A stretch of 39,765 bases of DNA, from contig JAQSXQ010000002.1 in NCBI GenBank assembly GCA_029256565.1, positions 1 through 39,765 on the forward strand, in the 5' to 3' direction. Shown here in pieces: positions 3,383-38,826 of the stretch. Numbering within the stretch: the stretch's first letter is position 1; the number at the start of each line of letters is the position of its first letter. The stretch is from Mycobacterium sp. (lineage in GTDB: Bacteria > Actinomycetota > Actinomycetes > Mycobacteriales > Mycobacteriaceae). Made by a program: the position numbers and the translations under genes. Under the pieces are notes generated by a model. It searched no databases and had not been told where the DNA came from. It saw only the letters and a list, made by a program, of their open reading frames with translations.

Positions 3383-4204
3383 CTACCGCACGTCAGGGAA
3401 CATACCTTCCGGGGGTGCCGTGTACGGCAGCGGTCCGCCGGGAATGTTGCGGTCGTGCACACCGTCGACGGGACCGAAGGGCCCGTTCTGGGGGTCGAGC
3501 AGGACGGCCATGTGGTGGTCGGCGTGGTCGCGCCACCACACGCTCATGCCGGTGGCGGGGTCTTGACGCAGGTTTTCCCAGGCGCGCCAGAGCGCTTCGA
3601 GGCGGATCACTGCCTCGTCGTACTTCCACCACTCGGCGGCCCAGACGCGGTGTTCGCCGCGGCCGGCGATGTGGCGCCGGTAGACGTTGCGCAGGTACTC
3701 CCGCACGAACTCGTCGACCGACCCGTAGTAGAGCGACGCCGCACCGTCCTCGTCGCTCGCGTGCTCGACGGCGGGCCGCGCCTGGTCGATGGCGACGGCG
3801 AGGTCCTGGTCGGCGTGATGGACGACGGCGGCCGCGTCCTTGAGCTCACGCTCCCGGGCGCTGACCCCGGCGGTACGCCGGGCGAGGACTCGGCGTGCCT
3901 TCTCCACGTCCTCGGCCGCCGCGACGCGCTGCCACGTCGCCTTGGTCTCGTCGTCCTCGTAGTCGGTGACCTTGGCCTCCGCGACGCGTAGGACGCCCTC
4001 GGCGTCCGCGAGGGCGTCGCGTGCGTCGTCGAGCTGGGCCGTCGCGCGAGCGTGCGCCGTCAGCGCGCCCTCGAGCGTGGCGCGCGCCTCGACGACCTCG
4101 GGCGGCTCGACGGCCGCCCGGCCACCGGAGGCCGGCGCGTCGTCGACGTCGACGGGCTGGGCCTCGATCGCCGGCTCGTAGTCGTCCTCGCCCCAGTCGC
4201 TCAC
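3383..4204 (-). CDS. DUF4913 domain protein
   Basis: Real start taken as GTG 4204..4202 (VSDWGEDDYEPAIEAQ...), giving a GTGA overlap with the upstream gene stop. C-terminus YGSVDEFVREYLRNVYRRHI...WWKYDEAVIRLEALWRAWENLR...WWRDHADHHMAVLLDPQNGPF is DUF4913-like. The longer 862-aa ORF reading is an out-of-frame extension. Confidence 0.8.
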   Translation of the reverse strand: MSDWGEDDYEPAIEAQPVDVDDAPASGGRAAVEPPEVVEARATLEGALTAHARATAQLDDARDALADAEGVLRVAEAKVTDYEDDETKATWQRVAAAEDVEKARRVLARRTAGVSARERELKDAAAVVHHADQDLAVAIDQARPAVEHASDEDGAASLYYGSVDEFVREYLRNVYRRHIAGRGEHRVWAAEWWKYDEAVIRLEALWRAWENLRQDPATGMSVWWRDHADHHMAVLLDPQNGPFGPVDGVHDRNIPGGPLPYTAPPEGMFPDVR

Positions 4205-6033: not shown

Positions 6034-7559
6034 CACGCCGCCCCCTCGTCCAGCAGACCCGTGCGCGAGCGGTCCGCCCAGCGCACCGCGCTCATGTGCA
6101 GCGACTTCTCGGACTCGGTGAGCACCAGGTCGATCGGAATCCCTGGGCGGCCACCGACCTTGACGAGAAACTTGCCGCGCCCAGGGGGCGGCGTCTCGCG
6201 CCCTTCCTTCGGGTCCCATGCGGGCGGGTCCTGCCAGCCGGCGAGCAGCTCCTGCTCCCCGCGCGAGAGCGCGACGACGGACGTCAGCAGCGGCATCTCG
6301 CTCAGCGGCAGGCCGCCGCACACGACCAGGCCGGACCGCTCGATGAAGCCCATGGCCTTCTGCCGGTCCTCCTCGAGCGGGAGGGAACGCAGGTCCTTGA
6401 GCGTGTGCGTGATCATCGCAAGACCCACCCCGACCGTGCGGTTGAGGCGGGTGAGGTAGTCGACGCGGTCCACGAGCCCCGGCCCGGCCTTGAGGGCCTG
6501 GTGCAGCTCGTCGAGGATCACGAAATAGTGCCGGCGGTTCTCCAGGCCCACGTCGGCAAGGGTCTGGGCGATGTTGACCACGGCGAAGCCCGCGGACCAG
6601 GAGGCGAGCAGCGCGACCGCGCGCAGGTCGCCGTCGGACTGAGGGATCGCGGAGACGTCGTAGACCACGGCGCGATCGCGGCGCATGGGGTGCGTGGTCG
6701 GCTTGGCGAACACGTCACCGAACTTTCCGCCCGGGCTCAGCGCCACGAGCGAGGCTTCCAGCTCCTCGGTGACCTCCTGGTAGCGCTGGTCGGTGCCGCG
6801 GTCCAGCGCCGCCTCACGCAGCTCGGGCGGCGCCGAGCGGATCACGCGCAGCAGGTCCGGGATCAGCGGGACGCCGTCGTGGTGCTCGTCGAGCCAGGCG
6901 ATACCGCGCGCGAGGATCGTCTCCTCGCGCGCGGTCGGGGCGCTCTTGCGCAGCACCGTGATGAGCGCGACCAGCATGTTCAGCCGCAGGCCCTGGGCAT
7001 CGGCCAGGACCTCGCCCGCGGCCTGGCGGTACCCGGCGGCGCGCAGCCGGCGCGCGGCATCGGGAGCCTCGCCCGGGTCCAGGACGTTCAGCGACCCGCG
7101 GTTTCGCCCCAGCGGGATCACCTGGCCGCCCAGCTTCTCGACCATGCGGACGTAGTCCGGGCGGGTGTCCCCCAGCACCAGAGGGATGACGCCCTGCCCG
7201 GACAGGCCGACGGCCATGCGCATGACCGCGGACGTCTTGCCGAGCCCGGGCCGGCCGAGGAAGAACACCGAGGGGTTGCCGATGAGGTTGGCGCGTTGGT
7301 ACCAGCTGATCGGGTCGCAGCACAGCGTGGCGCCGGTGAGGATGTGTCGGCCGAACGGCACCCCCACCATGGGGGTGCCGGCACCGATCGCGAACGGCCA
7401 CATGCCGCACACCTGCACGGTGGTGCCGCGCCACTCGTCGGCCTGCTGGACGTAGCCCGCCTGGCCGCGGCCGCGACCCAGCCACCCGCGCATCGGCGGG
7501 CGCTGGGGACGCAGTTCGCGCTGCCCCCGTGCCTTCTTCGCGCGTGCTCGGGTGCTCAC
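6033..7559 (-). CDS. VirB4/TraC-like conjugation ATPase
   Basis: 508 aa from GTG 7559; Walker A FLGRPGLGKTSAVMRMAVGL, Walker B YFVILDELHQAL; GTGA overlap with upstream gene. Confidence 0.85.
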   Translation of the reverse strand: MSTRARAKKARGQRELRPQRPPMRGWLGRGRGQAGYVQQADEWRGTTVQVCGMWPFAIGAGTPMVGVPFGRHILTGATLCCDPISWYQRANLIGNPSVFFLGRPGLGKTSAVMRMAVGLSGQGVIPLVLGDTRPDYVRMVEKLGGQVIPLGRNRGSLNVLDPGEAPDAARRLRAAGYRQAAGEVLADAQGLRLNMLVALITVLRKSAPTAREETILARGIAWLDEHHDGVPLIPDLLRVIRSAPPELREAALDRGTDQRYQEVTEELEASLVALSPGGKFGDVFAKPTTHPMRRDRAVVYDVSAIPQSDGDLRAVALLASWSAGFAVVNIAQTLADVGLENRRHYFVILDELHQALKAGPGLVDRVDYLTRLNRTVGVGLAMITHTLKDLRSLPLEEDRQKAMGFIERSGLVVCGGLPLSEMPLLTSVVALSRGEQELLAGWQDPPAWDPKEGRETPPPGRGKFLVKVGGRPGIPIDLVLTESEKSLHMSAVRWADRSRTGLLDEGAA

Positions 7560-12812: not shown

Positions 12813-13358
12813 ATGGCACGACGGGTCGCGTGGGCGGCCGGAGCGGTCGCGGTCGCGGCCGCCCTGGGAGGCTGCGCCGGCGCACCGGCCACAGAGGCGC
12901 CGGGAGTCGCTCCCGCGTCGACGGTCACCGCGACCGAGGGCGGCGCTGACCGGTATCCCGGGGCGCCCGAGGGTGTGGTCGACGAGGACACCGGCGAGGT
13001 CATCACCGCCCGGCCTGTGCCGACATGGGACGACGCGTCGCGCGATAGCGCTCTTGAGGCCGCGCAGGCGGCCATGACCGCGTTCGCCCGCCCCGACCTG
13101 GACCACGATGCGTGGTGGGCAGGGTTGGAGCCGTTGCTGACGCAGCAGGCGGCCCTGGACTACGCGTATGTCGATCCTGCGACCGTGCCCGCGACCGCGG
13201 TGACCGGGCCCGCGACGCTGGCGGAGGAGACCAGCGCCTACGTGGCGACGGTCGAGGTCCCCACCGATGCGGGCCTCTACACGGTCGTGCTGACCCGCCA
13301 GGACGCGGCCGCGCCGTGGTTGACCGCGCGCATCAGCCCGGCCCAGGGAGACCAGTAA
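12813..13358 (+). CDS. Putative lipoprotein of the conjugation block
   Basis: 181 aa; signal peptide with lipobox AALGGC; C-terminal NTF2-like-looking segment. Confidence 0.7.
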   Translation: MARRVAWAAGAVAVAAALGGCAGAPATEAPGVAPASTVTATEGGADRYPGAPEGVVDEDTGEVITARPVPTWDDASRDSALEAAQAAMTAFARPDLDHDAWWAGLEPLLTQQAALDYAYVDPATVPATAVTGPATLAEETSAYVATVEVPTDAGLYTVVLTRQDAAAPWLTARISPAQGDQ

Positions 13359-14419
13359 TGGGCTCCTCCCGCACCACGGGGGCGGTCGCGGTCGTGGCCG
13401 GTGTGCCCGTGCTTGCGCTGGGCACCGTGTTCAGCCTGCTCCTGCTCGGCTCGTCCTCCGAGGCCGCCACGTGCAACCCTGCCTCGGGTTCGAGCTCGGC
13501 GGTCACGATCGACCCGGCCGGCGTGCCGGGCGGGATCGCGGGGTACGACCGCGAGCAGCTGGTCAACGCCGCGCACATCATCGCCGCGGGCAAGGCCCTG
13601 GGCCTGGGGGTGCGGGACCAGACGATCGGGGTCATGACCGCGATGGGCGAGTCCAGCCTGCGCGTCATCGACCGCGGCGACGCCGTGGGGCCTGACAGCC
13701 GCGGACTGTTCCAGCAGCGCGACAACGGCGCCTGGGGGTCCTATGAGGACCGGATGGACCCGCACATCAGCGCGACGAACTTCTTCACCGCGATGATCGC
13801 CAACGTCCCCGGCCGTGAGTCGCTCGAGCCGACGATCGTCGCGCACCGCACCCAACGCAACGCCGACCCCTTCCACTACACGAAGTACTGGGACGGCGCG
13901 GTCGCGGTCGTCGAAGGCCTGTCCGGGGTGGACACCGGCCTGAACGCCGGCACCGGCGCCCAGGTCTGCACCGGCGGCACCACCATCGGCGGCGAGCTCT
14001 CTGCGACCGGGTGGGCCGTGCCCGCGACCGGCCCGATCGTCAGCAACTACGGGATGCGCCTGCACCCCATCGACAAGGTCTGGCGCCTGCACTCCGGCGT
14101 CGACCTGGGCGGCGGCGGGTGCGACGGACCGATCTGGGCCGCCCAAGACGGGGTGGTGACGTTCACCGGGTTCGACCGCAACGGCAACGGCACGATCACC
14201 GTCGACCACGGCGGCGGCGTCCAGACCTCCTACCTGCACCAGTACGCCTCCGGGATCCTCGTCCGCGCCGGCGACCAGGTGCAGGCCGGGGACCAGATCG
14301 GGCGCGTCGGGTCCTCGGGGCAGTCCACCGGCTGCCACCTGCACTTCTCAGTCCTCATCGACGGCTCCCCGACCGACCCGGTGCCGTTCATGAACGACAT
14401 GGGCATCCAGCTCGGCTAA
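13358..14419 (+). CDS. Secreted cell-wall hydrolase: lysozyme-like domain + M23 metallopeptidase
   Basis: 353 aa from ATG 13358 (TAATG overlap with lipoprotein stop); lysozyme-like segment IGVMTAMGESSLRVIDRGDAVGPDSRGLFQQR; M23 motifs HSGVDLG and GCHLHFSV. Confidence 0.9.
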   Translation: MGSSRTTGAVAVVAGVPVLALGTVFSLLLLGSSSEAATCNPASGSSSAVTIDPAGVPGGIAGYDREQLVNAAHIIAAGKALGLGVRDQTIGVMTAMGESSLRVIDRGDAVGPDSRGLFQQRDNGAWGSYEDRMDPHISATNFFTAMIANVPGRESLEPTIVAHRTQRNADPFHYTKYWDGAVAVVEGLSGVDTGLNAGTGAQVCTGGTTIGGELSATGWAVPATGPIVSNYGMRLHPIDKVWRLHSGVDLGGGGCDGPIWAAQDGVVTFTGFDRNGNGTITVDHGGGVQTSYLHQYASGILVRAGDQVQAGDQIGRVGSSGQSTGCHLHFSVLIDGSPTDPVPFMNDMGIQLG

Positions 14420-18423: not shown

Positions 18424-18494
18424 TTCATTCATGAACACAGACATGAAGCGCGTCATGAAGTGTGGCCGCCGGTCATGACTTCATACATTCATGC
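18424..18494. repeat. TTCATG/CATGAA motif cluster upstream of parA (candidate operator/centromere arm)
   Basis: TTCATGAA 18428-18435, CATGAA 18442-18447, CATGAA 18454-18459, TTCATG 18488-18493. Confidence 0.75.
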
Positions 18495-18551
18495 AAACAG
18501 CCACAACCAGACGTTCGCAGGACGTCCTGGGCAACTTGAGAGAGGTACCCG

Positions 18552-19328
18552 ATGACGACGACGACCGCGCTCGGCAACCAGAAGGGTGGTGTCGGGAAGA
18601 CCACGGTGTCGCTGTGCTTGCTGAGCGAGCTCGCTCGTCTCGGCAGGTCATGCTTGCTGATCGACCTCGATCAGCAGATGTCAGCGTCCTCGACAGTAGG
18701 GGCTGAAGGCGACATCACGATCGAGGACGTCCTGCGAGCCAAGGCTCCTGCGCACCTGTCGGACGCGATCGAGAAGTCGAAGTGGGAGGGTATCGACGTA
18801 GTCCCGGGCTCCGACACGATCCAGACACTCGAGCGCGACCCGGACGTGATGGCTGCATTCCGGCTTCAGAAGGTCCTGCGGGACAACGCCGACCTGCTCT
18901 CGAAGTACGACGACATCATCATCGACCTGCCGCCTGACCTGGGGACATGCACGGTGTCAGGACTGCTCGCGGCAGACCAGGTGATCGCCGTAACAATCCC
19001 CGAGCCCTGGAGCTCGGAAGGCCTCGACCGATTCCTGACGACACTTGAGGGGATCCGACAAGGACCGCACCCGTCGCTCACGCTCTTCGGAGTAATGGTG
19101 AACATGGTCCGTAGGACAAACGAGCACCGCTACCGCATCACAGAACTCAACGAGACCGTGGGCGGACTAGTCATGCAGCCCGTTATCCCGCAGCGTGTGG
19201 CTGCGGCAGAGGTCGCAAGCGAGCAGCTGCCACTGCATGAACTGAAGAACGACGGCGCGAAGGTCCTTTCGGACCTGTTTGGCGAGCACGCCAAGGCGTT
19301 GGCCGATGGCAAGAGGGGGACGAACTGA
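18552..19328 (+). CDS. parA: ParA-family partition ATPase (short, no N-terminal HTH)
   Basis: 258 aa; ALGNQKGGVGKTTVSLCLLSEL, LLIDLDQQMSASS, IIIDLPPDLG. Confidence 0.9.
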   Translation: MTTTTALGNQKGGVGKTTVSLCLLSELARLGRSCLLIDLDQQMSASSTVGAEGDITIEDVLRAKAPAHLSDAIEKSKWEGIDVVPGSDTIQTLERDPDVMAAFRLQKVLRDNADLLSKYDDIIIDLPPDLGTCTVSGLLAADQVIAVTIPEPWSSEGLDRFLTTLEGIRQGPHPSLTLFGVMVNMVRRTNEHRYRITELNETVGGLVMQPVIPQRVAAAEVASEQLPLHELKNDGAKVLSDLFGEHAKALADGKRGTN

Positions 19329-19951
19329 TGCCGAAGCCACGGATGCAGAAGAGGACCGCACTGGACGTCGTCCTTGGCCAGCCGGCCCCGGAGATCCCTT
19401 CGACGGACATCGAGAACGGATCGCAGGACTCGTCTGTGCCTCAAGTGACAGCCGCCACCGCTGAGGCGTCAGCCACGGACGATGATGGTGTTCTGAGCGA
19501 TGACACCGTCAACCACGTCGCCGAGGGTGACGACAAGGCTGCAATGAAGGTCGTTGAGCCCGAACTCGGCGCAGAGCCGAGCGGGAACTCAACCGGCGAC
19601 ATGAGTTCCCTCGAGGACGAGGTTGAGAACGAACAGGGCGCACCGCCTGCAGTGACTCCGTTGCCTCTCACTCCGGCACGCACGCCGGCGCGGGATGGTA
19701 CGGCGAAGCCGCGGACACGGCGCCAGTCCGCTCCTGCCCCTTCCCTCGAAGAGACCGATCCCAGATTCGAACCCGTACTCGGACGCAACGACGATGCGGC
19801 CCTCGTCCCCTTCTCCACCCGCCTTAGTCCTGATCTTCGTCGTCGCCTGAAGCTCTACTCGGCTGTCTCCGGGGAGTCAACGACGAGCCTCACGAACCGG
19901 GCGCTGGACTACATGCTCGAAGTCTCAGAGCGAAAGGTCGGCCTTCGGTAG
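19328..19951 (+). CDS. Putative centromere-binding partner of ParA with C-terminal ribbon-helix-helix domain
   Basis: 207 aa, TGATG overlap with parA. Basic N-terminus MPKPRMQKRTALDVVLGQ, long acidic low-complexity middle, C-terminal VPFSTRLSPDLRRRLKLYSAVSGESTTSLTNRALDYMLEV (RHH-like). Confidence 0.75.
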   Translation: MPKPRMQKRTALDVVLGQPAPEIPSTDIENGSQDSSVPQVTAATAEASATDDDGVLSDDTVNHVAEGDDKAAMKVVEPELGAEPSGNSTGDMSSLEDEVENEQGAPPAVTPLPLTPARTPARDGTAKPRTRRQSAPAPSLEETDPRFEPVLGRNDDAALVPFSTRLSPDLRRRLKLYSAVSGESTTSLTNRALDYMLEVSERKVGLR

Positions 19952-20003
19952 CCTCCCTCTCGCTGCAAGCGCCGGCACGCCGCGGCATCGCCCGCGCCGT
20001 GCC

Positions 20004-20400
20004 GGCGTTCATGCGTTCATGAAGTAATGAATGATCCGTGCCCTTGGGCTGCTTCGCGTGTGAGTACGCCCTGCGCTAGCAGTCCGGTGCATCCGCGCGC
20101 GGGTTCATGCCTTCATGTATGCATGACTGTGTAGATGAACGGGTTCATTCATGTATGAAGACATGCAGTCAAGCATGAAGTGACCGCCGCTGGGCAAACT
20201 TGCATGAAACGCCTCATGAAGCCGTTCATGCATGAACACAGATAAGAAGTCCGACAAGAATGAATGCAGGAACGCATGCATGAACGCATGCATGAACGCA
20301 TGCATGAACGCATGCATGTATGAACCCGAGTGCATGATCAACACGGTGAACACGTGGCGAACGAGTTCATGCATGAACGCAGGCATGAATGAATGAAGCA
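20004..20400. repeat. Non-coding repeat field of TTCATG/CATGAA motifs; candidate partition centromere (or iteron-like origin element)
   Basis: About 16 or more hexamers, e.g. 20008, 20016 (TTCATGAA), 20104, 20112, 20148, 20174, 20203, 20215, 20225/20231, 20279, 20291, 20303, 20366/20372, 20384. Confidence 0.85.
20270..20317. repeat. Four perfect tandem copies of 12-bp GAACGCATGCAT
   Basis: 20270-20281, 20282-20293, 20294-20305, 20306-20317 read directly. Confidence 0.95.
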
Positions 20401-20478
20401 CTGGCGGCATCTGCCGGGCGAGCGAACCGCAGGAACGGGCTCGCGGGTCCTAGCGAGTACCCACCGAAGGAGCAGCGC

Positions 20479-20640
20479 ATGACGATCGATCTGACACACC
20501 CCCACACGGTCACGGTGACGATGCCTCCGGCACGTGCGGACGTCGAAGGGAGCCTGCTCAGGCTGCTGGCAGATGGTCCGAGCGGGCTCGTCGTGGGAGA
20601 CCTGATCTGGCCGAACGTCCCGGCCTCGGACCAGCTCTAG
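20479..20640 (+). CDS. Small 53-aa hypothetical protein
   Basis: ATG 20479 preceded by GAAGGAGC Shine-Dalgarno-like sequence: MTIDLTHPHTVTVTMPPARADVEGSLLRLLADGPSGLVVGDLIWPNVPASDQL. Confidence 0.5.
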   Translation: MTIDLTHPHTVTVTMPPARADVEGSLLRLLADGPSGLVVGDLIWPNVPASDQL

Positions 20641-20891: not shown

Positions 20892-21881
20892 TCACGAGCT
20901 CAGCGCCGAGACGCGTTCTCGGATCCATGAGAGCTTGCGTTCCTCGTGGCGCCACTGTCCTCCCTCGTGGCCGTGAAACTCGTAGACAGCCAGCTCCTTC
21001 GGGCCCTTGTAGGCGCGGTACGCGGCGAGCACGGTCTTCGGTGGGCACACGTCGTCGCGCATCGCGACGCTGAAGAGTGCAGGGGCGGTTGCCGCTCGGA
21101 CGTGTGCGACGACATCCACGTACGCCAGGCGAGAGAGGAGGTCAGCCTGCGAGTCAGGGTACGCGCGGAGGTGGTCGAGGAGCTCGAGGTAGGGGCCGCG
21201 TTCGGCGATGCGGATCGCTTGGGGGATGTCGCAGAGAAACGGGACGTCCGCGAGTACGCCGGCCACGTCCGGGACCAGTCCCGCCGCTGCTAGTGCGAGG
21301 CCGCCGCCTTGGCTTCTCCCGGTGAGAAACACCGCATCAGCCCGCACGGCGTGATGCTCCCGCAGCGCGCGCACGGCTTGGACGCAGTCGGCGAAGACGC
21401 GCCGGTAGTACATGGTGCGGGCGGAGCCAAGGCCGCGGGTGAGGAAGCCGGCGGTCTCAGGCCCGGTGCCCCCGAGGGGGTCGGCGGTGTCTCCGGGGGA
21501 AAGCGCGTTGCCTTGTCCTCGCGTGTCCATCGTCAGGTGTGCATATCCGGCCGACGCCCAGAGAGATGGCGCGAGCGGATGTCCGCGGCCGGCACCGTAG
21601 GGGTTGAACTGGACGACCGCGGGAAGTGGAAGGGGTGCATCTTTCGGAAGGTGGAGCCATCCTTTGATGGGGTTGCGGTGTGCTCCTGCGATAGTCATGT
21701 CGAATGTCGTTGTCGCGGCCAGCCCGGTCTCATGGGGCATGGCCTCGACCAGGGGTGACCGGGGGAGCAGCCTGAGGGACTCGTACCAGAACCGGTCGAA
21801 GTCCGCTGGAACCGCGGTGCCTCGTTCCTGGCCCTGGGGCGAGTTGGTCGCGATCATCGGCCCACGGGCACTCGATCTCAT
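20892..21881 (-). CDS. Acetylxylan esterase/cephalosporin-C deacetylase-like (CE7-type) hydrolase
   Basis: 329 aa; WYESLRLLPRSP, TMDTRGQG, nucleophile elbow TGRSQGGGLAL, HGHEGG near C-terminus. Confidence 0.85.
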   Translation of the reverse strand: MRSSARGPMIATNSPQGQERGTAVPADFDRFWYESLRLLPRSPLVEAMPHETGLAATTTFDMTIAGAHRNPIKGWLHLPKDAPLPLPAVVQFNPYGAGRGHPLAPSLWASAGYAHLTMDTRGQGNALSPGDTADPLGGTGPETAGFLTRGLGSARTMYYRRVFADCVQAVRALREHHAVRADAVFLTGRSQGGGLALAAAGLVPDVAGVLADVPFLCDIPQAIRIAERGPYLELLDHLRAYPDSQADLLSRLAYVDVVAHVRAATAPALFSVAMRDDVCPPKTVLAAYRAYKGPKELAVYEFHGHEGGQWRHEERKLSWIRERVSALSS

Positions 21882-22870
21882 CCGCGTCGCGCGACTTCGC
21901 TGGTGTAGGAGAGCACGGCGTCGGCGCTGAGCGCGGCCGCGCGCTCAGCGGTCTGACGCGTCGCCCCCGCCAGGTGGGGCGTCATGACGAGTCGAGGTGC
22001 CTGACGGATCGCGTCGTCGACCGCTGGCGGCTCGGGATCATAGACGTCGACTGCGGCGGCGCCGAGCCCCCCTGTACGAAGCGCTGTGACGAGCGCGTCC
22101 TGGTCGACGAGGCCGCCTCGGGCTGTGTTGACGAGGACCGCGCCTGGGCGCATGCGCTGCAGTGCTGCCGCATCGATGATGTGCCGCGTCTCGTCAGTCA
22201 GGCGGGCATGCAGGCTGACGACTGCAGCTTGTCGCAGCATGCCGTCGAGGTCACTCTGCTCGCCGTACTCGATCACTTCGGCGTAGGGATCGTGCACGAG
22301 GACGCGGGCGCCGAAGGCGCTCAGGATGCGTGCGACGCGTCGACCGATGGCGCCGTACCCGATCAGCCCGACGGTAGCGCCTGCGAGCTCGCTGCCGCAG
22401 GCTTCGATCTGGTAGTCACCGCCGCGCCACTCGCCCGCGCGCATGCTCCTGTCCAGCTCGGGGATGTTGCGCAGCGCCGCCATCATCAGAGCGATGGTGT
22501 GCTCGGCTGCCGCGGGGGCGTTGCGGCCCGGCGTGGTGCGGACCTGGACCCCGGCCTCGCGGGCGGCATCAAGGTTGACGTTCACGGGGCCGCCGCGGCA
22601 CACGACGACGAGGCGGAGGTCGGGTGCTGAAGAGAGTACGCGGCGCGTGATCGGCGCCATCTGTGTGACAAGGACCTCGATGCCTTCGAGAGCCGCGATC
22701 AGGCTCTCTTGCGTGCCCGATGCCTCGCTGACCTCGGCGACCGGTCCAAACGGCACGCTCGGCCACGGAAGCTCGAGGGTGTGGATCTCGGCCCCGGGTA
22801 CTCGGGAGCCGAGCTCTTGCGCGAGCAGCGCATTCGTGACGAAGCCGTCGCCTGCAGTCAGAATCTTCAT
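21878..22870 (-). CDS. D-isomer-specific 2-hydroxyacid dehydrogenase
   Basis: 330 aa; VGLIGYGAIGRRVARIL Rossmann motif, VNTARGGLVDQDAL, MTPHLAGAT. Confidence 0.9.
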   Translation of the reverse strand: MKILTAGDGFVTNALLAQELGSRVPGAEIHTLELPWPSVPFGPVAEVSEASGTQESLIAALEGIEVLVTQMAPITRRVLSSAPDLRLVVVCRGGPVNVNLDAAREAGVQVRTTPGRNAPAAAEHTIALMMAALRNIPELDRSMRAGEWRGGDYQIEACGSELAGATVGLIGYGAIGRRVARILSAFGARVLVHDPYAEVIEYGEQSDLDGMLRQAAVVSLHARLTDETRHIIDAAALQRMRPGAVLVNTARGGLVDQDALVTALRTGGLGAAAVDVYDPEPPAVDDAIRQAPRLVMTPHLAGATRQTAERAAALSADAVLSYTSEVARRG

Positions 22871-22879
22871 GATGTCCTC

Positions 22880-24319
22880 TCAGTCGGTGACGTCTGCCCA
22901 AAGAGTCCGGGCCGAGCGGACGTCCCGGAGGTAGGTCGAGTAGCCGCGTTCGTAGTGCTGGGTGCTGCCGTGCCCAGGGTTGATGGTCGTGGTCTCCGAG
23001 GGGGGCGGCACCGGCGTCCCGGTGGCGTGAGCAGCCTGGATCGCGGCACCGAGGGCGCCGACCTCGGGAGCGGTGCACTGTTCCATGGGACGCCCCAAGA
23101 CGTCGGCGAATGCTTGTGCGAGCGGACCGCGTGAGCCGCCACCGCACACGAGGAGGCGTCCCGAGAGTCCGGCTCTCTCGAGGCAGCTGCGTGCGCTGTA
23201 GCCGAGACTTTCCACGACCGCTCGGACGATGTCGGCTGCCGAGGTGTGCAGCGTCAGTCCGTCGATACGGCCCCGCGCGCGCGGATCGCGGAACGGAGCT
23301 CGCTCACCGGCCGGGGCGAGAAAGGGCAGCGCCCGGGCGGTGGTTGTGGGGCGCTCTTCCAGGAGGCGGGGGATGTCCTGGATCGTGTGACCCACCAGGC
23401 CCAGCGCCCAGTCGAGCGTCGCGGCCCCGACCATCGCTGGCATGGCGCGCCAGTGCCGGTCTGGGTCCGCGGTGGCAAGGGTAAGGCCGACAGGCTCCTC
23501 GTCCTGGGGAAGGGAGGACGCCAGGACTTCGCAGGCGAGGGTCGTTCCGACGATCAGCAGGCCGTCGCCGACCTCGGAAGCCCCCGCGCCGATCGCGCTG
23601 GCGACGAGATCGTAGGGGGCGGACACGACGGGTATGCCGGCCGTGAGGCCGGTACGTGAGGCGATCTCGGGCAGGAGGCCGCCGGTCGGCGTGCTCGTCA
23701 CCGGGGATGCGAGTTGCTCGGCGTCGGGGATGCCCAGCAGGTCGAACAGCGCGGCGGATGGCTCGCGGCGGTGCATGTCGAACAGGACAGCGTTGGAGTG
23801 GTCCGTGGAGCGGATTCCGGCGAGCTGGGCGGCGATCATGTCCTTGCAGTGCCATGCCCTGCGAGCCATCTTGAGTGTGTCTGGTTCCTCGCGGGCGGCC
23901 CAGGCGAGCAGCGCGGGTGTTGACCCTGCGAACGGGGCGCTGCCGGTGGTGTGGAACAGCTCGGCGTGGGTGCCATCGCGTTCCCACTCGGCGACGATTC
24001 CTTGGGCCCGCCCGTCCATCCAGGAGATCGCCGAGCGGACGGGGGTCCCGTCCTCGCGGGTCAGCCACAGGCCGTCGCCCTGGGCGGTCACGCCTACGGC
24101 GACCACATCGCGGGCCCGGTCTCCCAGGACGGTCACGAGATCGCTGAGCACGGCGACGACGGAGTCGAAGACGTCCTCCTGCCGTTGCTCATAGCGGTCG
24201 CTCGAGGTGTGCTCGACCCGAGTGGCCCTGGACGTGACGACCGTAGGCCTGTCCGGCGAGAACGCCGCGGCTTTGGTGATGGTCGTGCCGGCGTCGACGC
24301 CGATGACGATTCCCATCAT
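22880..24319 (-). CDS. FGGY-family carbohydrate kinase
   Basis: 479 aa; IGVDAGTTITKAAAF, GVTAQGDGLW, LLVCGGGSRGPLAQAFADVLGRPM, EVGALGAAIQAA. Confidence 0.9.
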   Translation of the reverse strand: MMGIVIGVDAGTTITKAAAFSPDRPTVVTSRATRVEHTSSDRYEQRQEDVFDSVVAVLSDLVTVLGDRARDVVAVGVTAQGDGLWLTREDGTPVRSAISWMDGRAQGIVAEWERDGTHAELFHTTGSAPFAGSTPALLAWAAREEPDTLKMARRAWHCKDMIAAQLAGIRSTDHSNAVLFDMHRREPSAALFDLLGIPDAEQLASPVTSTPTGGLLPEIASRTGLTAGIPVVSAPYDLVASAIGAGASEVGDGLLIVGTTLACEVLASSLPQDEEPVGLTLATADPDRHWRAMPAMVGAATLDWALGLVGHTIQDIPRLLEERPTTTARALPFLAPAGERAPFRDPRARGRIDGLTLHTSAADIVRAVVESLGYSARSCLERAGLSGRLLVCGGGSRGPLAQAFADVLGRPMEQCTAPEVGALGAAIQAAHATGTPVPPPSETTTINPGHGSTQHYERGYSTYLRDVRSARTLWADVTD

Positions 24320-25131
24320 TGGCCCCGGGCGACGACGACGTTGGCGCCCGCCTGCGCGAGGTCCTCGACCAGCGCGTCCGGTGTGCCGGCGTCGACGATG
24401 ACGAGGTCCCAGTCGGATGCGTCCGATACGCGGTGGAGCGCTTTGCGGCCGAGCTTCGAGTGGTCCATCAAGAGGATTCGCCGATCCGCGACCTCCATCA
24501 TGGCGCGTTTCACGGCGACGATCGCGGGCTCCTGGTGGAACGAGCCGTCCACGCTCATCGCTGAGGTGGAGGCGAAGAGGGTGTTCACACGCAGCGCACG
24601 CACCGCGTCGATGCAGCCGTGCCCAAGGAAGGACCGGTGCGTGGGCGAGTACTCGCCGCCTAGACCGATGAGCCGAAGCTCTTCGGTCGCTCCGAGCTCC
24701 TCGATGATGTCGACGAAGTTAGTCGCGACCGTCAGGTCGGGAACACCTGGCAGCAGGCGGGCCAGAGCGAGTGCTGAGGTTGAGTCGTCAAGCATGATCC
24801 CGGACCCGGCCGCAACGTGGGTGATCGCGGTGCTGGCGATCTGCTGCTTGGCGCTGGTGCTCAGGCGCATCCGGTAGGTGACGTCGGGCTCGAAGATGCT
24901 GCTGCGCTGGGCCGCCGCGCCGCCGTGGTAGCGGCGCACGATCCCCTGAGCGGCCAGCGCATCGAGGTCACGATGCACCGTCATGATGCTCACGCCGAAA
25001 CGCTCGGCGAGTTCTGCCGCGGACGCCTGCCCCTTCTCGAAGACGACTTCGGTGATCTCGGCCTGGCGCTGGGACTTGCGCCGCTGCGCGCGTGGCGGGG
25101 CACCGTCATCGGGGTGCGCGTAGGACATCAT
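24316..25131 (-). CDS. DeoR/GlpR-family transcriptional regulator
   Basis: 271 aa; AELAERFGVSIMTVHRDLDALAAQGIVRRYHGGA, DDSTSALALARLLP. Confidence 0.9.
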   Translation of the reverse strand: MMSYAHPDDGAPPRAQRRKSQRQAEITEVVFEKGQASAAELAERFGVSIMTVHRDLDALAAQGIVRRYHGGAAAQRSSIFEPDVTYRMRLSTSAKQQIASTAITHVAAGSGIMLDDSTSALALARLLPGVPDLTVATNFVDIIEELGATEELRLIGLGGEYSPTHRSFLGHGCIDAVRALRVNTLFASTSAMSVDGSFHQEPAIVAVKRAMMEVADRRILLMDHSKLGRKALHRVSDASDWDLVIVDAGTPDALVEDLAQAGANVVVARGQ

Positions 25132-25738
25132 GGTCTCCTAGTGACTGGTTGTAGGCGATGAGCGACCAGGTGCCGTCGGCGGAAAGCCCGAGCGTCGTCA
25201 CCGCGCAGGGCTCGAGCCTGGGCAGTCGCCGACGGTACTCCCCAAGAGAGATGCCCAGGACGTGGCAGACGATCAGACGAATCATCGTGCTATGGGCGAT
25301 CGCGAGTGGTCGAGGGCCGCACTGCGCTGCCCAGTCGGACAGCGCGGTGGTCGCCTCACGAACCCGGTCTGAGGGGTCGTCGCCGTTGGGCCAGTGATGC
25401 TTGACCGGGTCGGCCTCGAACGCTCGGGTCGCCCCGGGAAGCGCCTCACGCATCTGTGCGAGGGTGCGACCTTCCGCGACGCCGAATCCGATCTCGCGCA
25501 GCTCGCTCAGTACCGTGGCCGTGTGGCCAGTCTTCTCGGTGACGGCCTTAGCCGTGTCCTGCGCCCGGCGCAAGGTGCTCGCCGCAAGATCGCTGACGCC
25601 GCGAGCGGCCATCGCCGTAGCAAGGCGCTCGGCCTGGGCGCGCCCGACGTCGTCGAGGCCGATGTCTGAAGAGCCGGCGTACCGGTTTCCGTGATGCCAG
25701 GGAGTCTGCCCGTGACGGGCGAGGAGAAGCTCGATCAC
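25106..25738 (-). CDS. Histidine phosphatase (phosphoglycerate mutase-like) family protein
   Basis: 210 aa; LLLARHGQTPWHHGNRYAG, ELREIGFGVAEG, AIAHSTMIRLIVCHVLG. Confidence 0.9.
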   Translation of the reverse strand: MIELLLARHGQTPWHHGNRYAGSSDIGLDDVGRAQAERLATAMAARGVSDLAASTLRRAQDTAKAVTEKTGHTATVLSELREIGFGVAEGRTLAQMREALPGATRAFEADPVKHHWPNGDDPSDRVREATTALSDWAAQCGPRPLAIAHSTMIRLIVCHVLGISLGEYRRRLPRLEPCAVTTLGLSADGTWSLIAYNQSLGDHDVLRAPR

Positions 25739-27219
25739 GCCGGCGTCCTCTCCGCAGAACCTGAGCGGAGGTAGCCGCGCGCGACCAGCTCCTCCACGAA
25801 ACCGAGGTAGCCGTCGTTCATCCTTGCGGCACGGCCAGGCTCCGGATCGATCACCGGGTGATGACCAACCATCTCCTTGGCACTCTCCACGACCGTCTGA
25901 CCGCGATGCGCGCCCCGGGCAGCCACAGCCATGCCGAATGCAGGCTGCGGTTCGCGCGGGAGCCGAACCGGGTGGTCGAGGACGGCCGCGCGCAGGCCGA
26001 GCCAGTAGCGAGAGCGTGTCGCCCCTCCCGTCACGCTGAGCGGTCCAACGAGGCTCGCTCCATGCGCGCGCAGCAGGTCGTAGGCAAGCCGCTCCACGAA
26101 AGCTATGCCCTGGAGCGCCGCGGCATAGCGCTCGTCCTTGGCCGACCCGCTGATGGTGCTGAACGCGGTGATCGACGAGGACTCGAACGGGAAGCGCTCG
26201 CCGACGCCCACGAGGGGATACACCACGCCGGTGGTTGGTTCATATCGTGCGGCGCCGCGGTCGCGGTTGTGGCCCACGTCATCACCGAAGTGCTCGGCCA
26301 GGAATCCAGCACCCACGTTCGATGCCCCGCCGGGCAGCCACCCATCGACGGGTGACCGGTGGGAGTAGACGCCATGCAGGGGAAGCGCGATCCGGTGCTC
26401 CGAGGCGCCCTTTACCGCAAGCGTCGTCCCGAGGACAGAGTTCCAGTGCCCGGGTTCGAGCGCGCCCGCTGAAATCTGTGCGGCACAACTGTCGGTGGTC
26501 CCTGCGACGACGAGCGCGCCGGCGTGGAGCCCGGTCTCCTCCGCTGCCTCCGCGTGTACCGTCCCGATCACCGTCCCAGGAGGGACAACTGGCGGGAGGC
26601 CGTCCGCCGAGACCCCGAGCTCGCCGAAGACTTCAGTCGGCCAGCGCAGGTGCTCAACGTCGTACCCGGTCTTGAGCGCCTGGGCCCAGTCGGTGGGCAC
26701 GATCTCGCCGACCAACCGCTCGTTGATGAAGTCGCCCTGATGGGCAAGCCGCAGGTCGCCCGAGTCCCACAGGCGCCGGGGTCCAGGATCCGCAAGTGCA
26801 GCCACGAGCCGCGGAAGTGCCCAGACTCCCTGCATCGGGTATCCCAGAGCGTCCCAAAGCTCTCGACCGGCGTCACGCACCGCGGCCGCGTAAGGGAGTC
26901 CGCGGCGATCGTTGTACATGAGTCCGGGAGTCGACGGCTCGCCGTCGTCCAGCAGGGCGAACGTGCCGGACGTCGAGCAGACCGACACGGCCCGGATCCG
27001 TCCGTGCACCGAGGAGCATGCCTGCCGGCACGCCGCGGCGACCGCGGTCCACCACGATGTCGGGTCCTGCTCGTGCAAGTCGCCGGCACGACGACTGGCG
27101 AGTGGCGCCCGCCCGATGCCACGGACGTCGCCAAGAGCGTCCGTGACGACAACTCGGACGCCCTGGGTGCCCACATCGATGCCTGCATAGAGATCGTCAC
27201 TGATCGCGGACCCGGTCAA
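25735..27219 (-). CDS. FGGY-family carbohydrate kinase (second)
   Basis: 494 aa; AGIDVGTQGVRVVVTD, VAGTTDSCAAQISAGAL, LSVTGGATRSRYWLGLRAAVLDHPV. Confidence 0.9.
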   Translation of the reverse strand: MTGSAISDDLYAGIDVGTQGVRVVVTDALGDVRGIGRAPLASRRAGDLHEQDPTSWWTAVAAACRQACSSVHGRIRAVSVCSTSGTFALLDDGEPSTPGLMYNDRRGLPYAAAVRDAGRELWDALGYPMQGVWALPRLVAALADPGPRRLWDSGDLRLAHQGDFINERLVGEIVPTDWAQALKTGYDVEHLRWPTEVFGELGVSADGLPPVVPPGTVIGTVHAEAAEETGLHAGALVVAGTTDSCAAQISAGALEPGHWNSVLGTTLAVKGASEHRIALPLHGVYSHRSPVDGWLPGGASNVGAGFLAEHFGDDVGHNRDRGAARYEPTTGVVYPLVGVGERFPFESSSITAFSTISGSAKDERYAAALQGIAFVERLAYDLLRAHGASLVGPLSVTGGATRSRYWLGLRAAVLDHPVRLPREPQPAFGMAVAARGAHRGQTVVESAKEMVGHHPVIDPEPGRAARMNDGYLGFVEELVARGYLRSGSAERTPA

Positions 27220-27493
27220 GGCGGTAGCTCCTCTCTTCGTCGGGACCCAAGTTATAGCACGCTAGGACGTCGAACTATCAAGTAGATGTGAGTCTCGACG
27301 GCACGCAGTTGCCTTATTTCGGCAGGTCAGCGCCCTGTTAGCGGACTTCTGCACCCTCAAGGCCGTGTGAATTATCATCATACTGTTGCTTACTCGCGCG
27401 CTTCTCTGCTTCAATGCCACTGCGCTTCAGTGCGCCGCAGCCCGTGGCCGGGCGCCTCACTCGGCCGACCAGCTTGTCCAAAGGAGGACACCC
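27220..27493. promoter_or_regulatory. Divergent intergenic region controlling the two catabolic operons
   Basis: 274 nt between divergent starts, locally AT-rich (TGTGAATTATCATCATACTGTTGCTTAC near 27366-27393). No operator could be assigned by eye. Confidence 0.5.
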
Positions 27494-28825
27494 ATGGCAC
27501 GACGAAGGCTTGCACTCTGGACCAGCGCGGTGGCGATCGCTCTGGTCGCCGCCGGTTGCTCGCAGAGCCCCGAGAGCGGTGGTGACGACAACGGGGGGCT
27601 GGCTCAGCCGATCACCTTCTGGCACGCGATGTCGGGGAAGAACGGCGAAGCGCTCCAAGCGATCGTGAACGACTTCAACGCTTCCCAGGACGACGTGGTC
27701 GTGGAGGCCGTGTTCCAGGGCAAGTACAACGATGTCCTGACCAAGCTCAAGGCGTCGATCCAGTCGGGGCAGAGCCCCACGCTCGTCCAGGTCTTCGAGA
27801 TCGGGACTCAGATCATGGTCGACACCGAGGCGACCATCCCCTTCGAAGAGCTTGCGGACCAGTACGGAGTCGCGCTCGACGACGTCGACCCCTCGATCGC
27901 TGGCTACTTCACCGTCGACGAGACCCTGCAGGCGCTGCCGTTCAACACGTCGGTTCCTCTGCTGTACATCAACCGTGGCGCACTCGAGGAAGCCGGGCTG
28001 GGAGACGAGCGACCCGAGACGTGGGGTGAGGTCCTCGCTCTCGCGGAGACGCTGACGGTACGGGACGGGTCGCAGACCAGCCGCTACGGCATGGTGTTGC
28101 CCGTCGAGGGCTGGTTCGTGGAGCAGATGCTCGCCGCCGGTGGCATGGGCTACTGCGACGGGGGCAACGGGCGAGACACCCGGGCTACCAGTGTCGAGTG
28201 GGACAACGACGTGGTGCGCGACATCATCACGGGATGGGCTGGCGGCGTTGCCGACGGGAGCATCCTCAACGTCGGGCGCAACAACACCGACGCCGCCGCC
28301 GCCTTCCAGGCTGGGCGCGCCGCGATGATCCCCTTCACGTCCGCGAACCTGCGCGACATGATCCGCGAGTCCGACTTCGACGTCGAGGTTCTCGACTTCG
28401 TCCGTCCCGATGGCAGTTCCGCGGGCGGCGTCTTCAACGGTGGCGCTGCGCTGTGGACGATGGCGGACTCCGACGAGCGCGAGCTGGAAGCGGCTGCCGC
28501 GTTCCAGGAGTACCTGCTCTCCCCGGACGTTCAGGGTCGGTGGGCCGCCGAGACCGGCTACGTCCCGCTCAACGTCGCTTCCTCCGAGACCGACGCGCTT
28601 GCGGCTGTCACCGAGGAGTTCCCGGCCTTCACCGTTGCCGGCGACCAGCTCGCTGAGTCCACCGGCACCGGCTGCCTGCTGGGCACCATGCCCCAGGCCC
28701 GTGACGCCATGAACGACGCGATCGAGGCAAGCGTGAACGGGTCGGCTGACCCCGCGACCGCGGTCGCGGACGCGCAGAGCTCCATGGCCACCATCATCAA
28801 CAGCTACAACGCCACCGTCGACTGA
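27494..28825 (+). CDS. ABC transporter substrate-binding lipoprotein (UgpB-like)
   Basis: 443 aa from ATG 27494 after AAGGAGG; lipobox VAAGC; ITFWHAMSGKNGEALQAIVNDFNASQ, typical extracellular solute-binding protein family 1. Confidence 0.9.
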   Translation: MARRRLALWTSAVAIALVAAGCSQSPESGGDDNGGLAQPITFWHAMSGKNGEALQAIVNDFNASQDDVVVEAVFQGKYNDVLTKLKASIQSGQSPTLVQVFEIGTQIMVDTEATIPFEELADQYGVALDDVDPSIAGYFTVDETLQALPFNTSVPLLYINRGALEEAGLGDERPETWGEVLALAETLTVRDGSQTSRYGMVLPVEGWFVEQMLAAGGMGYCDGGNGRDTRATSVEWDNDVVRDIITGWAGGVADGSILNVGRNNTDAAAAFQAGRAAMIPFTSANLRDMIRESDFDVEVLDFVRPDGSSAGGVFNGGAALWTMADSDERELEAAAAFQEYLLSPDVQGRWAAETGYVPLNVASSETDALAAVTEEFPAFTVAGDQLAESTGTGCLLGTMPQARDAMNDAIEASVNGSADPATAVADAQSSMATIINSYNATVD

Positions 28826-28860
28826 GCGGGATCTCGCACACCAACCAGCAAGGGAGTGAA

Positions 28861-29541
28861 ATGGTAGTCATCGTCGGGCACCGAGGTGCCCCGTCGACGG
28901 AGGTGGAGAACACCGTCGAGGCCGTGCGCGCGGCACAGGCGCAGGGGGCGGACGCCGTCGAGATCGACGTGCGGTTGTCGTCAGACGGTGTTCCTGTCCT
29001 GCTCCACGATCGAACCTTCCATCGCATCTGGGATCGGGATGAGCGCCCCGAAGACCTCACCCACGAGCAGATCTCGCGCCTACGACCTGACGGTGGCGAC
29101 GCGCACGTCCCGACACTCGCCGAGGTGGCCGGCGCGGTAGACCTGGAACTCATCGTGGACCTCAAGAACGGCGACGGCGTCCACCACGTGATGGACCAGC
29201 TGAAGGCCGCGGGCGCGGCCAACCGCGCACGCTTCATCGGCGAACCCGAAGTCCTCACGCAGGTCCGGCGCGCACTTCCCGACGCCGAGATCGTCCTGTC
29301 CCACGACCTCGAGCGCGATCCCACCGACCTCGTCACGGCGATCCGTCCGATCGCGCTCAACCTTCCGTGGGATCGCGTCGACTCCACCACTGCCGCGCAG
29401 GTCAGGGATTACGGGTGTTCCTTGTGGACCTACTGCGTCGACACGCCCGCCGACCTCGAAAGGGCCATGAGTCTGGGCGCCACCGGGATCATCTCGAACA
29501 ACATCCCCGCGCTCGGCCTGCCGCGTCGGGAGGTGGCATGA
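28861..29541 (+). CDS. Glycerophosphodiester phosphodiesterase (cytosolic)
   Basis: 226 aa; VGHRGAPSTEVENTVEAVRAAQAQGADAVEIDVRLSSDGVPVLLHD; no signal peptide. Confidence 0.9.
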   Translation: MVVIVGHRGAPSTEVENTVEAVRAAQAQGADAVEIDVRLSSDGVPVLLHDRTFHRIWDRDERPEDLTHEQISRLRPDGGDAHVPTLAEVAGAVDLELIVDLKNGDGVHHVMDQLKAAGAANRARFIGEPEVLTQVRRALPDAEIVLSHDLERDPTDLVTAIRPIALNLPWDRVDSTTAAQVRDYGCSLWTYCVDTPADLERAMSLGATGIISNNIPALGLPRREVA

Positions 29542-30356
29542 CCGAGGCGAAGCACGGCCCAAGAACGGAACTCGTGGACTTTGCTGCGGACTTGGCACGC
29601 GGTGCTGGAGACCTGATCCGTTCGGCAGCCTTCGACAAGGGCGAGGCGACGACGAAGTCCAGTGCGGCCGACTGGGTGACCCCGATCGACCGATCAGTGG
29701 AGGCCTGGCTCAGGGAAGCGATCACGGCCAGGTACCCCGGTCACGCGATCGTCGGCGAAGAGCTCGGCGTGACTCCGGGCGCGCACGAGGCTGCCCACGC
29801 CTGGCACATCGATCCCATCGACGGGACGACCAACTTCCTGCACGGACTGGGCAACGTTGCGGTGAGCATAGCCGTCGTCGACCACACCGGGCCCGTCGCG
29901 GCGGCCGTGCAGGACGTCTACCGCGGGCAGACGATCACCGCGGCGCGCGGCCATGGGGTGCATCTGGACGGGACGCCTCAGAAGCCGGTCGTGGCTGAGG
30001 ACCTCGCCGGGAACGTGTTGCTCACCGAGTGGTCCGGGCACCGGGCATGGGACGGCATGGAATCCTTTCTGCGCTGGGCGACCGACCGGACCGCAACGGT
30101 CCGGATCCTGGGCTCGTGCGCACTCGCGCTCGCCAGCGCTGGACTGGGCCGAGCACCCGTGTGCATCCTGCCTGGCCGCTACAACTCTTGGGACGTGGCG
30201 GCGGGTCTGCTCATCGCGACCGAGGGCGGGCTCAGCGTCCGCGGCCGACATGACGAGACCGAGCCAGTCCCCCAGGACGGGCTTCTCGTCGCCCCCTCAG
30301 CGCTGATCGACGACGTTCGAGACGCGTGGCTCGAGGCGGCGGAGGCGCTGACGTGA
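29538..30356 (+). CDS. Inositol monophosphatase-family phosphatase
   Basis: 272 aa from ATG 29538 (ATGA overlap); VGEE, WHIDPIDGTTNFLHG, NSWDVAAGLLIATEGG. Confidence 0.9.
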   Translation: MTEAKHGPRTELVDFAADLARGAGDLIRSAAFDKGEATTKSSAADWVTPIDRSVEAWLREAITARYPGHAIVGEELGVTPGAHEAAHAWHIDPIDGTTNFLHGLGNVAVSIAVVDHTGPVAAAVQDVYRGQTITAARGHGVHLDGTPQKPVVAEDLAGNVLLTEWSGHRAWDGMESFLRWATDRTATVRILGSCALALASAGLGRAPVCILPGRYNSWDVAAGLLIATEGGLSVRGRHDETEPVPQDGLLVAPSALIDDVRDAWLEAAEALT

Positions 30357-31306
30357 CTACCGCCGCCCCCGCCAAAGAACCCGTTCTCGCGACGCAGCCT
30401 GCACGGGGTGGATCGTGGCGGCGATCTCGTCGACGCCGAGACCAGCTCGTCGCCGCGCTCTTCCTGGCCATCCCGCTGGCCATCTTCCTGGTCTTCGTCT
30501 TCGTGCCACTGGCACGCACCTTGTGGCTGAGCGTGCACGCGACCGACATGTTCGGCCGTCCCCGTCAGTTCGTGGGACTCGAGCAGTACGCCCGCATGTT
30601 CAGCGACCCTGGTCTGCGCAAGGTTCTGCTGACGACGCTCCTGTTTGCCGTGCTCACGGTCGTGCCCAGTATCAGCGTAGGTCTCGTTCTCGCGCTCTCG
30701 CTTCAGGCGAAGACCCGCAGGATCGGGGTCTTCCGCACCCTCATGGCCACCCCGTTCGCCTTCTCGGCCGCCGCGGCGGCCGTCTTGTTCGACATCTTCT
30801 ACAGCCCGAGCGTCGGGGTGTTCAACGGGATCTTCGACCGCCTCGGCATCGCGCAGATCGGCTGGCTCACCGATCCTCGCTGGGCGCTCCTCAGCCTCGC
30901 GATCGTCATCGTGTGGCGCGACCTCGCCTACTGCATGCTCGTTCTGTCCGCCGGTCTGGGGGCGGTCCCCACCGAGGTCACCGAGGCCGCTGCGCTCGAC
31001 GGTGCGGGCCAGTGGCGCATGCTGCGCTCGATCATCCTGCCGCTCATCACTCCGAGCATGTTCTTCCTGCTGGTCATCTGCACGATCAACTCTCTGCAGA
31101 CCTTCGGCGAGATCAACATTCTCACCCAAGGCGGCCCGGACGGGGCAACCACGACCCTCGTCTACAGCCTCTATCAGTCCGCGTTTGCGTTCGGCGCCTC
31201 CGACTACGGCATGGCGAGCACGAAGGCCGTCGTTCTCATGTCCCTCGTGCTCATCGTCACGGTGGTCCAGTTCCGATTCCTCCAGAAGAAGGTGTTCTAC
31301 GGATGA
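30353..31306 (+). CDS. ABC sugar/glycerol-phosphate-type permease (UgpA-like)
   Basis: 317 aa from GTG 30353 (GTGA overlap); EAAALDGAGQWRMLRSIILPLITP EAA-loop motif; multiple TM. Confidence 0.9.
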   Translation: MTTAAPAKEPVLATQPARGGSWRRSRRRRDQLVAALFLAIPLAIFLVFVFVPLARTLWLSVHATDMFGRPRQFVGLEQYARMFSDPGLRKVLLTTLLFAVLTVVPSISVGLVLALSLQAKTRRIGVFRTLMATPFAFSAAAAAVLFDIFYSPSVGVFNGIFDRLGIAQIGWLTDPRWALLSLAIVIVWRDLAYCMLVLSAGLGAVPTEVTEAAALDGAGQWRMLRSIILPLITPSMFFLLVICTINSLQTFGEINILTQGGPDGATTTLVYSLYQSAFAFGASDYGMASTKAVVLMSLVLIVTVVQFRFLQKKVFYG

Positions 31307-32118
31307 GCCGGCTCCGCAGCCTTGGTGTCATCGTCGGCCTCACCGCGCTCACGGCTGTCGTCGTCTTCCCCCTGTACTACGCGATCGCCGGCTCCGTGAT
31401 GAACTACCAGGACCTCACACGCTTCCCACCTGCCCTGATTCCCACGAGCGTGAACGTCGAGAGCTTTGGCCGGGTGTTCGAGTCGGTCCCCCTGGCCAGG
31501 CAATACCTCAACAGCATCGTCGTCGCATGCTCCGTCGTCGCAGCAGTGCTGATCACCTCCGTGCTGGCCGGGTACGCATTTACGTTCCTGGACTTCCCTT
31601 ACAAGAAGGCCGTGTTCGGCCTCACCATGGCGACGCTCATGGTCCCGGCCGAGGCGACAATCCTGCCGAACTACCTGACGATCTCGGGATGGGGACTGCT
31701 CAACACCTATCCGGGCCTGTTCCTGCCGTTCCTCGCATCCGGTTTCGGCATCTTCTTGATGCGCCAGTTCTTCCTCTCGTTCCCGCGTGAGCTCTACGAA
31801 GCGGCGAGAGTCGAAGGCAGTTCGCACCTCAGGTTCGTCGTCTCGATCCTGGTGCCCTTGTCGAAGCCGGCCCTGAGCACGCTCGCGATCTACACCTTCA
31901 TCGTGACGTACAACCAGTACTTCTGGCCGCTCCTGGTCACCAACACCCCGAAGATGCAGACCTTGCAGATCGGCCTGTCCCAGCTCAGCTCCGTGGACGA
32001 GCGGACACCGAACGTCGTCCTGGCCGGTGTGGTCCTCGCGGTGATCCCGATGCTCGTCATCCTCTACGTGTTCCAGCGCCAGATCGTCCGGGGCCTGACG
32101 CAGGGGGCGGTGAAGTGA
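31303..32118 (+). CDS. ABC permease (UgpE-like)
   Basis: 271 aa from ATG 31303 (ATGA overlap); EAARVEGSSHLRFVVSILVPLSKPALSTLAIYTF EAA-loop motif. Confidence 0.9.
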   Translation: MSRLRSLGVIVGLTALTAVVVFPLYYAIAGSVMNYQDLTRFPPALIPTSVNVESFGRVFESVPLARQYLNSIVVACSVVAAVLITSVLAGYAFTFLDFPYKKAVFGLTMATLMVPAEATILPNYLTISGWGLLNTYPGLFLPFLASGFGIFLMRQFFLSFPRELYEAARVEGSSHLRFVVSILVPLSKPALSTLAIYTFIVTYNQYFWPLLVTNTPKMQTLQIGLSQLSSVDERTPNVVLAGVVLAVIPMLVILYVFQRQIVRGLTQGAVK

Positions 32119-33620: not shown

Positions 33621-33692
33621 CACGTCCTCGCCGCCACACAGGCACGGGCCAGCTCAACGAACCCAACAAGTCCAACCCATTGGAGGCACACG

Positions 33693-37039: not shown

Positions 37040-37107
37040 CCCGCACCGCCCGGTCAGGCGGCCATGTTCACCGTTCTTCCGTCTCGTCCCTCGAGGGAGC
37101 AGCTTCC

Positions 37108-38064: not shown

Positions 38065-38071
38065 GAACCGA

Positions 38072-38815: not shown

Positions 38816-38826
38816 GTGCACTCCCC

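Follow-up and report, generated by a model that had tools for sequence, protein, structure and literature searches.

A candidate type Ib plasmid partition cassette with CATG boxes in 4-bp register on both sides

Introduction

In ParA–RHH partition systems, the RHH protein coats an array of repeats and stimulates the ATPase activity of nucleoid-bound ParA. Such RHH partition proteins have been studied mainly in two model plasmids. The box of plasmid TP228 is ACTC. Its partner protein, ParG, acts on degenerate tetramer boxes and occupies the operator as well as the centromere (PMC7308502). RHH partition proteins bind sites that overlap their own promoters; in the delta/omega system of pSM19035 these promoter-overlapping sites are present in many copies in several regions, and the partner needs at least four contiguous heptads for full activation of ParA (PMC9499535). 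A ParG-like/ParA pair is also carried by the R. equi element IME2287, for which the accessible part of the source describes no centromere (PMC10669575).

Here we describe a locus on a 39,765-bp stretch of DNA (the window), which is an entire contig. Like ParF-ParG-parH of TP228, the locus consists of a gene for a short ParA followed by one for a predicted RHH partner. On the other hand, its box is CATG rather than ACTC, its partner has 207 aa compared with 76 aa for ParG (1p94), and, unlike TP228, it has a large second array downstream. Its tetramer boxes with short spacers match the description of parH (PMC7308502). By sequence comparison, however, the ParA is nearer to Thermus Soj than to ParF: the PDB matches at E<=1e-8 included no ParF chain, and the best of them were a ParA family protein and Thermus Soj. 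With delta/omega the locus shares a ParA, an RHH partner and many repeated short sites in several regions, but pSM19035 has 7-bp non-palindromic heptads (WATCACW), whereas the window has a palindromic tetramer on a 4-bp lattice. In fact, a 7-bp period is absent from the upstream array (combined z 0.8), which has a period of 4/8/12 instead.

Results

The par genes

The features of the locus are collected in Table 1. The ParA, with a Walker A motif (KGGVGKTT) at residues 11-18 and without an N-terminal HTH, is type Ib-like, and its reading frame overlaps that of the partner by one base. Judged from sequence and family profiles, the locus has the make-up of a type Ib ParA–RHH system, with a short Walker A ParA that has no N-terminal HTH, a small protein predicted to be of the RHH type encoded directly downstream, and repeated short sites by the operon that co-vary with the partner.

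Table 1. Positions of the par cassette, its repeats and the neighbouring backbone gene in the window
Feature	Position	Strand	Evidence or remark
Probable replication initiator, prim-pol-like domain and winged helices	16524..18398	+	Backbone landmark outside the par cassette
Upstream array, 5 CATG boxes at 18430, 18442, 18454, 18474 and 18490	18428..18495	.	
parA, 258 aa	18552..19328	+	PF13614 (AAA_31) 1.8e-32; AAA_31 from residue 4
Candidate centromere-binding partner, 207 aa	19328..19951	+	Family and profile searches
Predicted RHH domain, residues 159-195, strand LVPFSTRLS	19802..19912	+	Nearly identical in L002 (NZ_CP072388.1)
GC-rich hairpin after partner stop codon	19968..20009	+	z -4.3
Downstream field, 24 CATG boxes from 20010 to 20384, 4-bp lattice	20008..20396	.	
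12-bp tandem array ATGCATGAACGC x4.6 within downstream field	20264..20318	.	Nearly perfect

The partner is made up of an N-terminal basic motif, MPKPRMQKRTALDVVLG, an acidic, proline-rich linker of about 130 aa and a C-terminal domain assigned to the RHH type. From a single sequence this assignment is weak, the family matches lying under curated cutoffs (RHH_10, E=0.014), and a PDB search with the RHH domain alone found no match. A family profile of nine sequences matched solved RHH proteins (9kkd, 1.3e-5; 2kel, 7.5e-4) and, over 27 residues only, ParG (1p94, E=0.053); the repetitive designed proteins that topped the list of this search were discarded as multi-copy artefacts. AlphaFold predicted two confident helices with a short turn between them in the last 68 residues, and the nearest solved folds are mostly RHH proteins, none of them significant singly; the model is a monomer, hence the intertwined strand is not formed. 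The family profile and the predicted fold thus support an RHH C-terminus. No ParB/Spo0J model in Pfam or NCBIfam matched the partner, which sets it apart from the HTH-ParB/parS pairs of type Ia, and the NCBIfam matches to PrgP, slr0373 and enoyl-CoA hydratase were far under their cutoffs and were dismissed. An acidic linker of such length between the basic motif and the RHH domain is unusual among such partners and, as a speculation, might let many dimers contact ParA.

The partner gene is followed by a hairpin that is terminator-like but has no T-run, a search of the region for T-tailed terminators having found none. The closest relative described below (NZ_CP072388.1) has an unrelated hairpin of equal strength at the matching place (z -4.9). 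The position of this hairpin suggests that the downstream field probably lies outside the operon, a location more in keeping with a structural site than with a promoter. Searches of the region found no sigma-70-like promoter and no Rfam RNA.

CATG boxes and their register

The window contains 33 copies of TTCATG/CATGAA, compared with a mean of 6.8 and a maximum of 16 in 100 dinucleotide shuffles. The earlier note, which had reported about four copies before parA and 16 or more after the RHH gene, was accurate on this point, with 5 copies within 18428-18493 and 17 within 20008-20389. The basic unit, however, is the palindrome CATG and not the hexamer. Base composition predicts 0.6 copies of CATG for the 152-bp gap before parA and 1.5 for the 397 bp of the downstream field. 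The gap has 5 and the field 24, although the counts within a field are not independent of one another, partly owing to the 12-bp tandem array, which is a recent duplication.

In both fields, neighbouring boxes are spaced by 4, 8, 12, 16 or 20 bp, and nearly all spacings are multiples of 4. Among nearest spacings of up to 24 bp, this holds for all four upstream (12, 12, 20 and 16) and for 17 of 18 downstream; outside both fields, it holds for 3 of 10 in the window, with mixed remainders modulo 4. Tetramers that lie in register but are not CATG agree with it at 1.66 of 4 positions, compared with 0.50-0.66 out of register, which makes each field a tiling of degenerate tetramer boxes. Such a lattice is more like the tetramer boxes of ParG/parH than like a set of hexamer half-sites. 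Slippage alone does not account for the register, since the spacers in box clusters other than the 12-bp array differ from box to box, and a slippage-only origin was therefore rejected. Where boxes are stacked 4 bp apart, simultaneous occupancy of all of them is impossible. The GC content of the downstream field is about 51%. A minus-strand ORF at 20105-20410 was dismissed as coding sequence, being merely a translation of the repeats.

The closest relative

The closest relative of the cassette (L002) is on NZ_CP072388.1, the complete 146-kb plasmid of Cellulosimicrobium cellulans ORNL-0100, where its genes are annotated merely as ParA family and hypothetical proteins. The ParA proteins are 94.6% identical and the partners about 50% overall, the linker having diverged. 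Like the window, this plasmid carries both CATG fields. The gap upstream of parA is 86.7% identical between the two, with the boxes in register, and all six spacings of the plasmid's upstream array (12, 12, 20, 8, 8 and 8) are multiples of 4. Its downstream field is largely rearranged, with only short pieces that can be aligned with the window, and contains 28 boxes (24 in the window) whose short spacings are multiples of 4 in 23 of 23 cases; outside the fields, 16 of 46 CATG spacings on the plasmid are multiples of 4. In the whole 146 kb, 400-bp windows with at least 10 CATG occur only in the downstream field, and, the two par arrays apart, the only lattice run is a single stretch of four boxes within coding sequence.

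A tblastn search with the partner found one plasmid record only, and class-wide and order-wide genome searches uncovered no further close cassettes, the empty order-wide search carrying little weight. When genome and viral contigs were scanned for peptide patterns of ParA, only distant relatives turned up, and the exact repeat strings are absent from viral contigs. The large downstream field was seen at two loci only.

Boxes and period in more distant relatives

Four cassettes from Rhodococcus-group plasmids and Mycobacteriaceae genomes combine partner strands of the type xFSARx with CATG boxes that precede parA and lie a multiple of 4 bp apart, the spacings being 8/24/16 (L022), 16/4/12/16 (L030), 16/16/28 (L119) and 4/12/16/12 (L120). 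Lattice runs of at least four boxes in about 774 kb of other loci were found only in L022, L030 and L120, always before parA. In the parA-parG modules of Prescottella equi pRSRe2287 and of a Rhodococcus ruber Y14 plasmid, whose partner strand (LTQFSARLD) is related to that of the window, the spacings of the CATG boxes ahead of parA are multiples of 4; these modules differ in their 85-aa partner, in having 4-5 boxes and in having no downstream field.

Across about 45 relatives, the array period tracks the type of the partner, being 4/8 bp with FSSKIE and most FxxR strands and 9 bp with HNxR strands. Partners with EPFSSKIEI strands (Arthrobacter and relatives) are accompanied by 8-bp GACGTAAT-like repeats. 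The Arthrobacter-type plasmid modules compared here, presumably those classified in PMC6305408, have a ParA about 40% identical to that of the window, a C-terminal RHH partner and an 8-bp periodic array before parA, but their boxes are GACGTAAT-like without a CATG lattice and their partners have 102-127 aa. Mycobacteriaceae cassettes with HNxR[IL]RPS partners (L009-L037) have 9-bp-period arrays upstream of parA, with a combined z of up to 8.5, whereas the period in Micrococcales cassettes is 4/8 bp. The RHH strand alone does not fix the box: L011 and L025, whose strand (LVPFSTRIT) is nearly that of the window, have GAAT/ATTC boxes and no CATG lattice, and the AFATRLPP group of partners has TCTAACA boxes. 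The L011 partner (genome G050) has a counterpart of 100% identity on a plasmid of Hoyosella subflava.

Linkage of the boxes to par

The probable replication initiator (Rep) next to the cassette matches LigD_Prim-Pol (E=1.6e-4) and has the motifs FLDLD, GGRH and LDPGPHRSVRTGCIR. Its relatives on the Cellulosimicrobium plasmids (NZ_CP072388.1, 6162-7847; pTL2A, 1869-3476) are annotated as 'MarR family transcriptional regulator', and these prim-pol-like proteins are probably a misannotated family of plasmid replication initiators, present in 16 of 395 genomes of the class. Identity of the Rep to that of the window is 83% on NZ_CP072388.1 and 56% on the C. cellulans plasmid pTL2A (L076, NZ_CP101476.1). 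The pTL2A backbone is otherwise common to the window, including a small ORF at 90.7% DNA identity, yet its par genes (3500-4995) encode a ParA only 25% identical and a different RHH partner. The repeats ahead of this parA are of the ACTTGCAAG type with a 9-bp period, and a CATG field is absent. Since pTL2A keeps the Rep but has par and repeats swapped, the boxes travel with par and not with the Rep. Some 2-6 kb downstream, each of the two Cellulosimicrobium plasmids has a gene for a ParB/Spo0J-like protein (L002 14349-15755; L076 7232-8644), possibly for a second partition system or another function; no such gene was noticed in the window.

Discussion

The sequence evidence makes it very probable that the locus is a ParF/ParG-like type Ib plasmid partition cassette in which the RHH partner acts on CATG boxes and the centromere comprises two arrays. 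The boxes are almost certainly the binding sites of the partner, as predicted from their grammar and their linkage to par. In the proposed mechanism, ParA would be the nucleoid-binding ATPase and the 207-aa protein the centromere-binding adaptor, whose RHH dimers would occupy CATG boxes in the 4-bp register, adjacent dimers being 8 or 12 bp apart. By analogy with known ParA–RHH systems, the 5-box upstream array, situated where the promoter is required, may serve as an operator for autorepression and as a minor centromere, while the 24-box field beyond the terminator-like hairpin may be the main centromere; there, many dimers would load and stimulate ParA through their basic N-terminal motifs. 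More tentatively, the palindromic box of 4 bp might be read by the RHH protein in an unbroken 4-bp register, so that several 8- and 12-bp dimer registers overlap within one array (a 'slidable centromere'), the RHH subtype setting both the array period (8 or 9 bp) and the box across actinobacterial plasmids. We consider this extension possible though doubtful; if true, period and box as set by the RHH subtype would constitute a readable incompatibility code.

Other readings of the arrays have to be weighed against this one. The CATG arrays could be replication-origin iterons bound by the winged-helix Rep, with par nearby only by chance, as the Rep adjoins the arrays and is conserved in the Cellulosimicrobium relative, and as the downstream field is, like many origins, AT-richer than the contig (GC 68.5%). 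Yet the repeats are not present wherever the Rep is, as pTL2A and more distant Rep relatives at 35-43% identity (L085-L087, L100 and L113-L116), which have no CATG run, demonstrate; conversely, L119 and L120 have CATG boxes before parA, and the Rep annotated beside their parA is not recorded as belonging to this family. We therefore set aside iterons of this Rep as very unlikely. It has also to be asked whether the roles of operator and centromere both fall to the upstream array alone, the downstream field being repeat DNA that expanded from it and has little function itself. The nearly perfect 12-bp tandem array and the mainly upstream arrays of distant relatives could be taken in this way, but the Cellulosimicrobium field is equal in size and similar in box number despite its largely rearranged sequence, and register and box are kept while the spacers vary, which leaves this reading a very small chance.

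A role of the RHH protein as an autorepressor or transcription factor, in a locus that serves conjugation or relaxosome placement rather than segregation, appears barely credible. Transfer-like genes, including a T4CP gene, do lie close by, and on Rhodococcus linear megaplasmids (pRHL1 and others; L121, L122, L123, L124 and L128) the RHH partner occurs as orphan copies that have no annotated parA next to them. These orphan copies, however, have no CATG lattice, and in the window the partner gene overlaps a ParA-family gene by one base in a plasmid context. A partition cassette with its RHH partner on CATG boxes thus remains the preferred reading.

The earlier note had proposed that the RHH protein reads CATGAA half-sites on both sides of the cassette and that this is a new motif class. 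Comparative evidence speaks for a partner acting on short boxes on both sides, although these are CATG units on a 4-bp lattice and not hexamer half-sites. The class is not confined to the window, as both fields recur in Cellulosimicrobium and the upstream one in the Rhodococcus group, but a literature search that left most subscription journals beyond its reach found no description of a CATG-lattice centromere. It therefore appears that the kind of system is known, while the CATG site grammar and the large second array are undescribed. Homologous parA–RHH pairs lacking the motif, which the same note would have taken as a refutation, do occur at about 35-42% ParA identity and carry other arrays; these arrays vary with the RHH type, which points to divergence of site specificity instead.

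Dozens of natural cassettes, among them a natural swap on one backbone, now allow a comparison of box, spacing and RHH strand, which makes both a specificity rule for RHH centromeres and the incompatibility of actinobacterial plasmids directly testable. In addition, these cassettes offer a simple signature at the DNA level by which plasmid centromeres overlooked in current annotation can be found.

The contig (C47) comes from a metagenome bin of 749 contigs that is 58.6% complete. Its nearest relatives are Cellulosimicrobium plasmids (Promicromonosporaceae), at odds with the family of the bin, which is probably GTDB Mycobacteriaceae, to judge from the Hoyosella subflava match of L011, whose genome belongs to that family. 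No strong match to the 2-hydroxyacid dehydrogenase of the contig was found among the listed genomes of the family. The contig is thus probably plasmid DNA of a Promicromonosporaceae-like host, either misplaced in the bin or recently transferred, a question without bearing on the par finding. Genes for a T4CP (TraG/VirD4-like) and an M23 peptidase at 4201-6321 and 13112-14419 suggest a conjugative backbone, and sugar and ABC-transport genes at 20892-39765 appear as cargo. The small ORF with 90.7% DNA identity on pTL2A, at 20479-20640 (MTIDLTHPHTVTVTMPP...), has a good ribosome-binding site, and its pTL2A counterpart directly follows the RHH gene of that plasmid.
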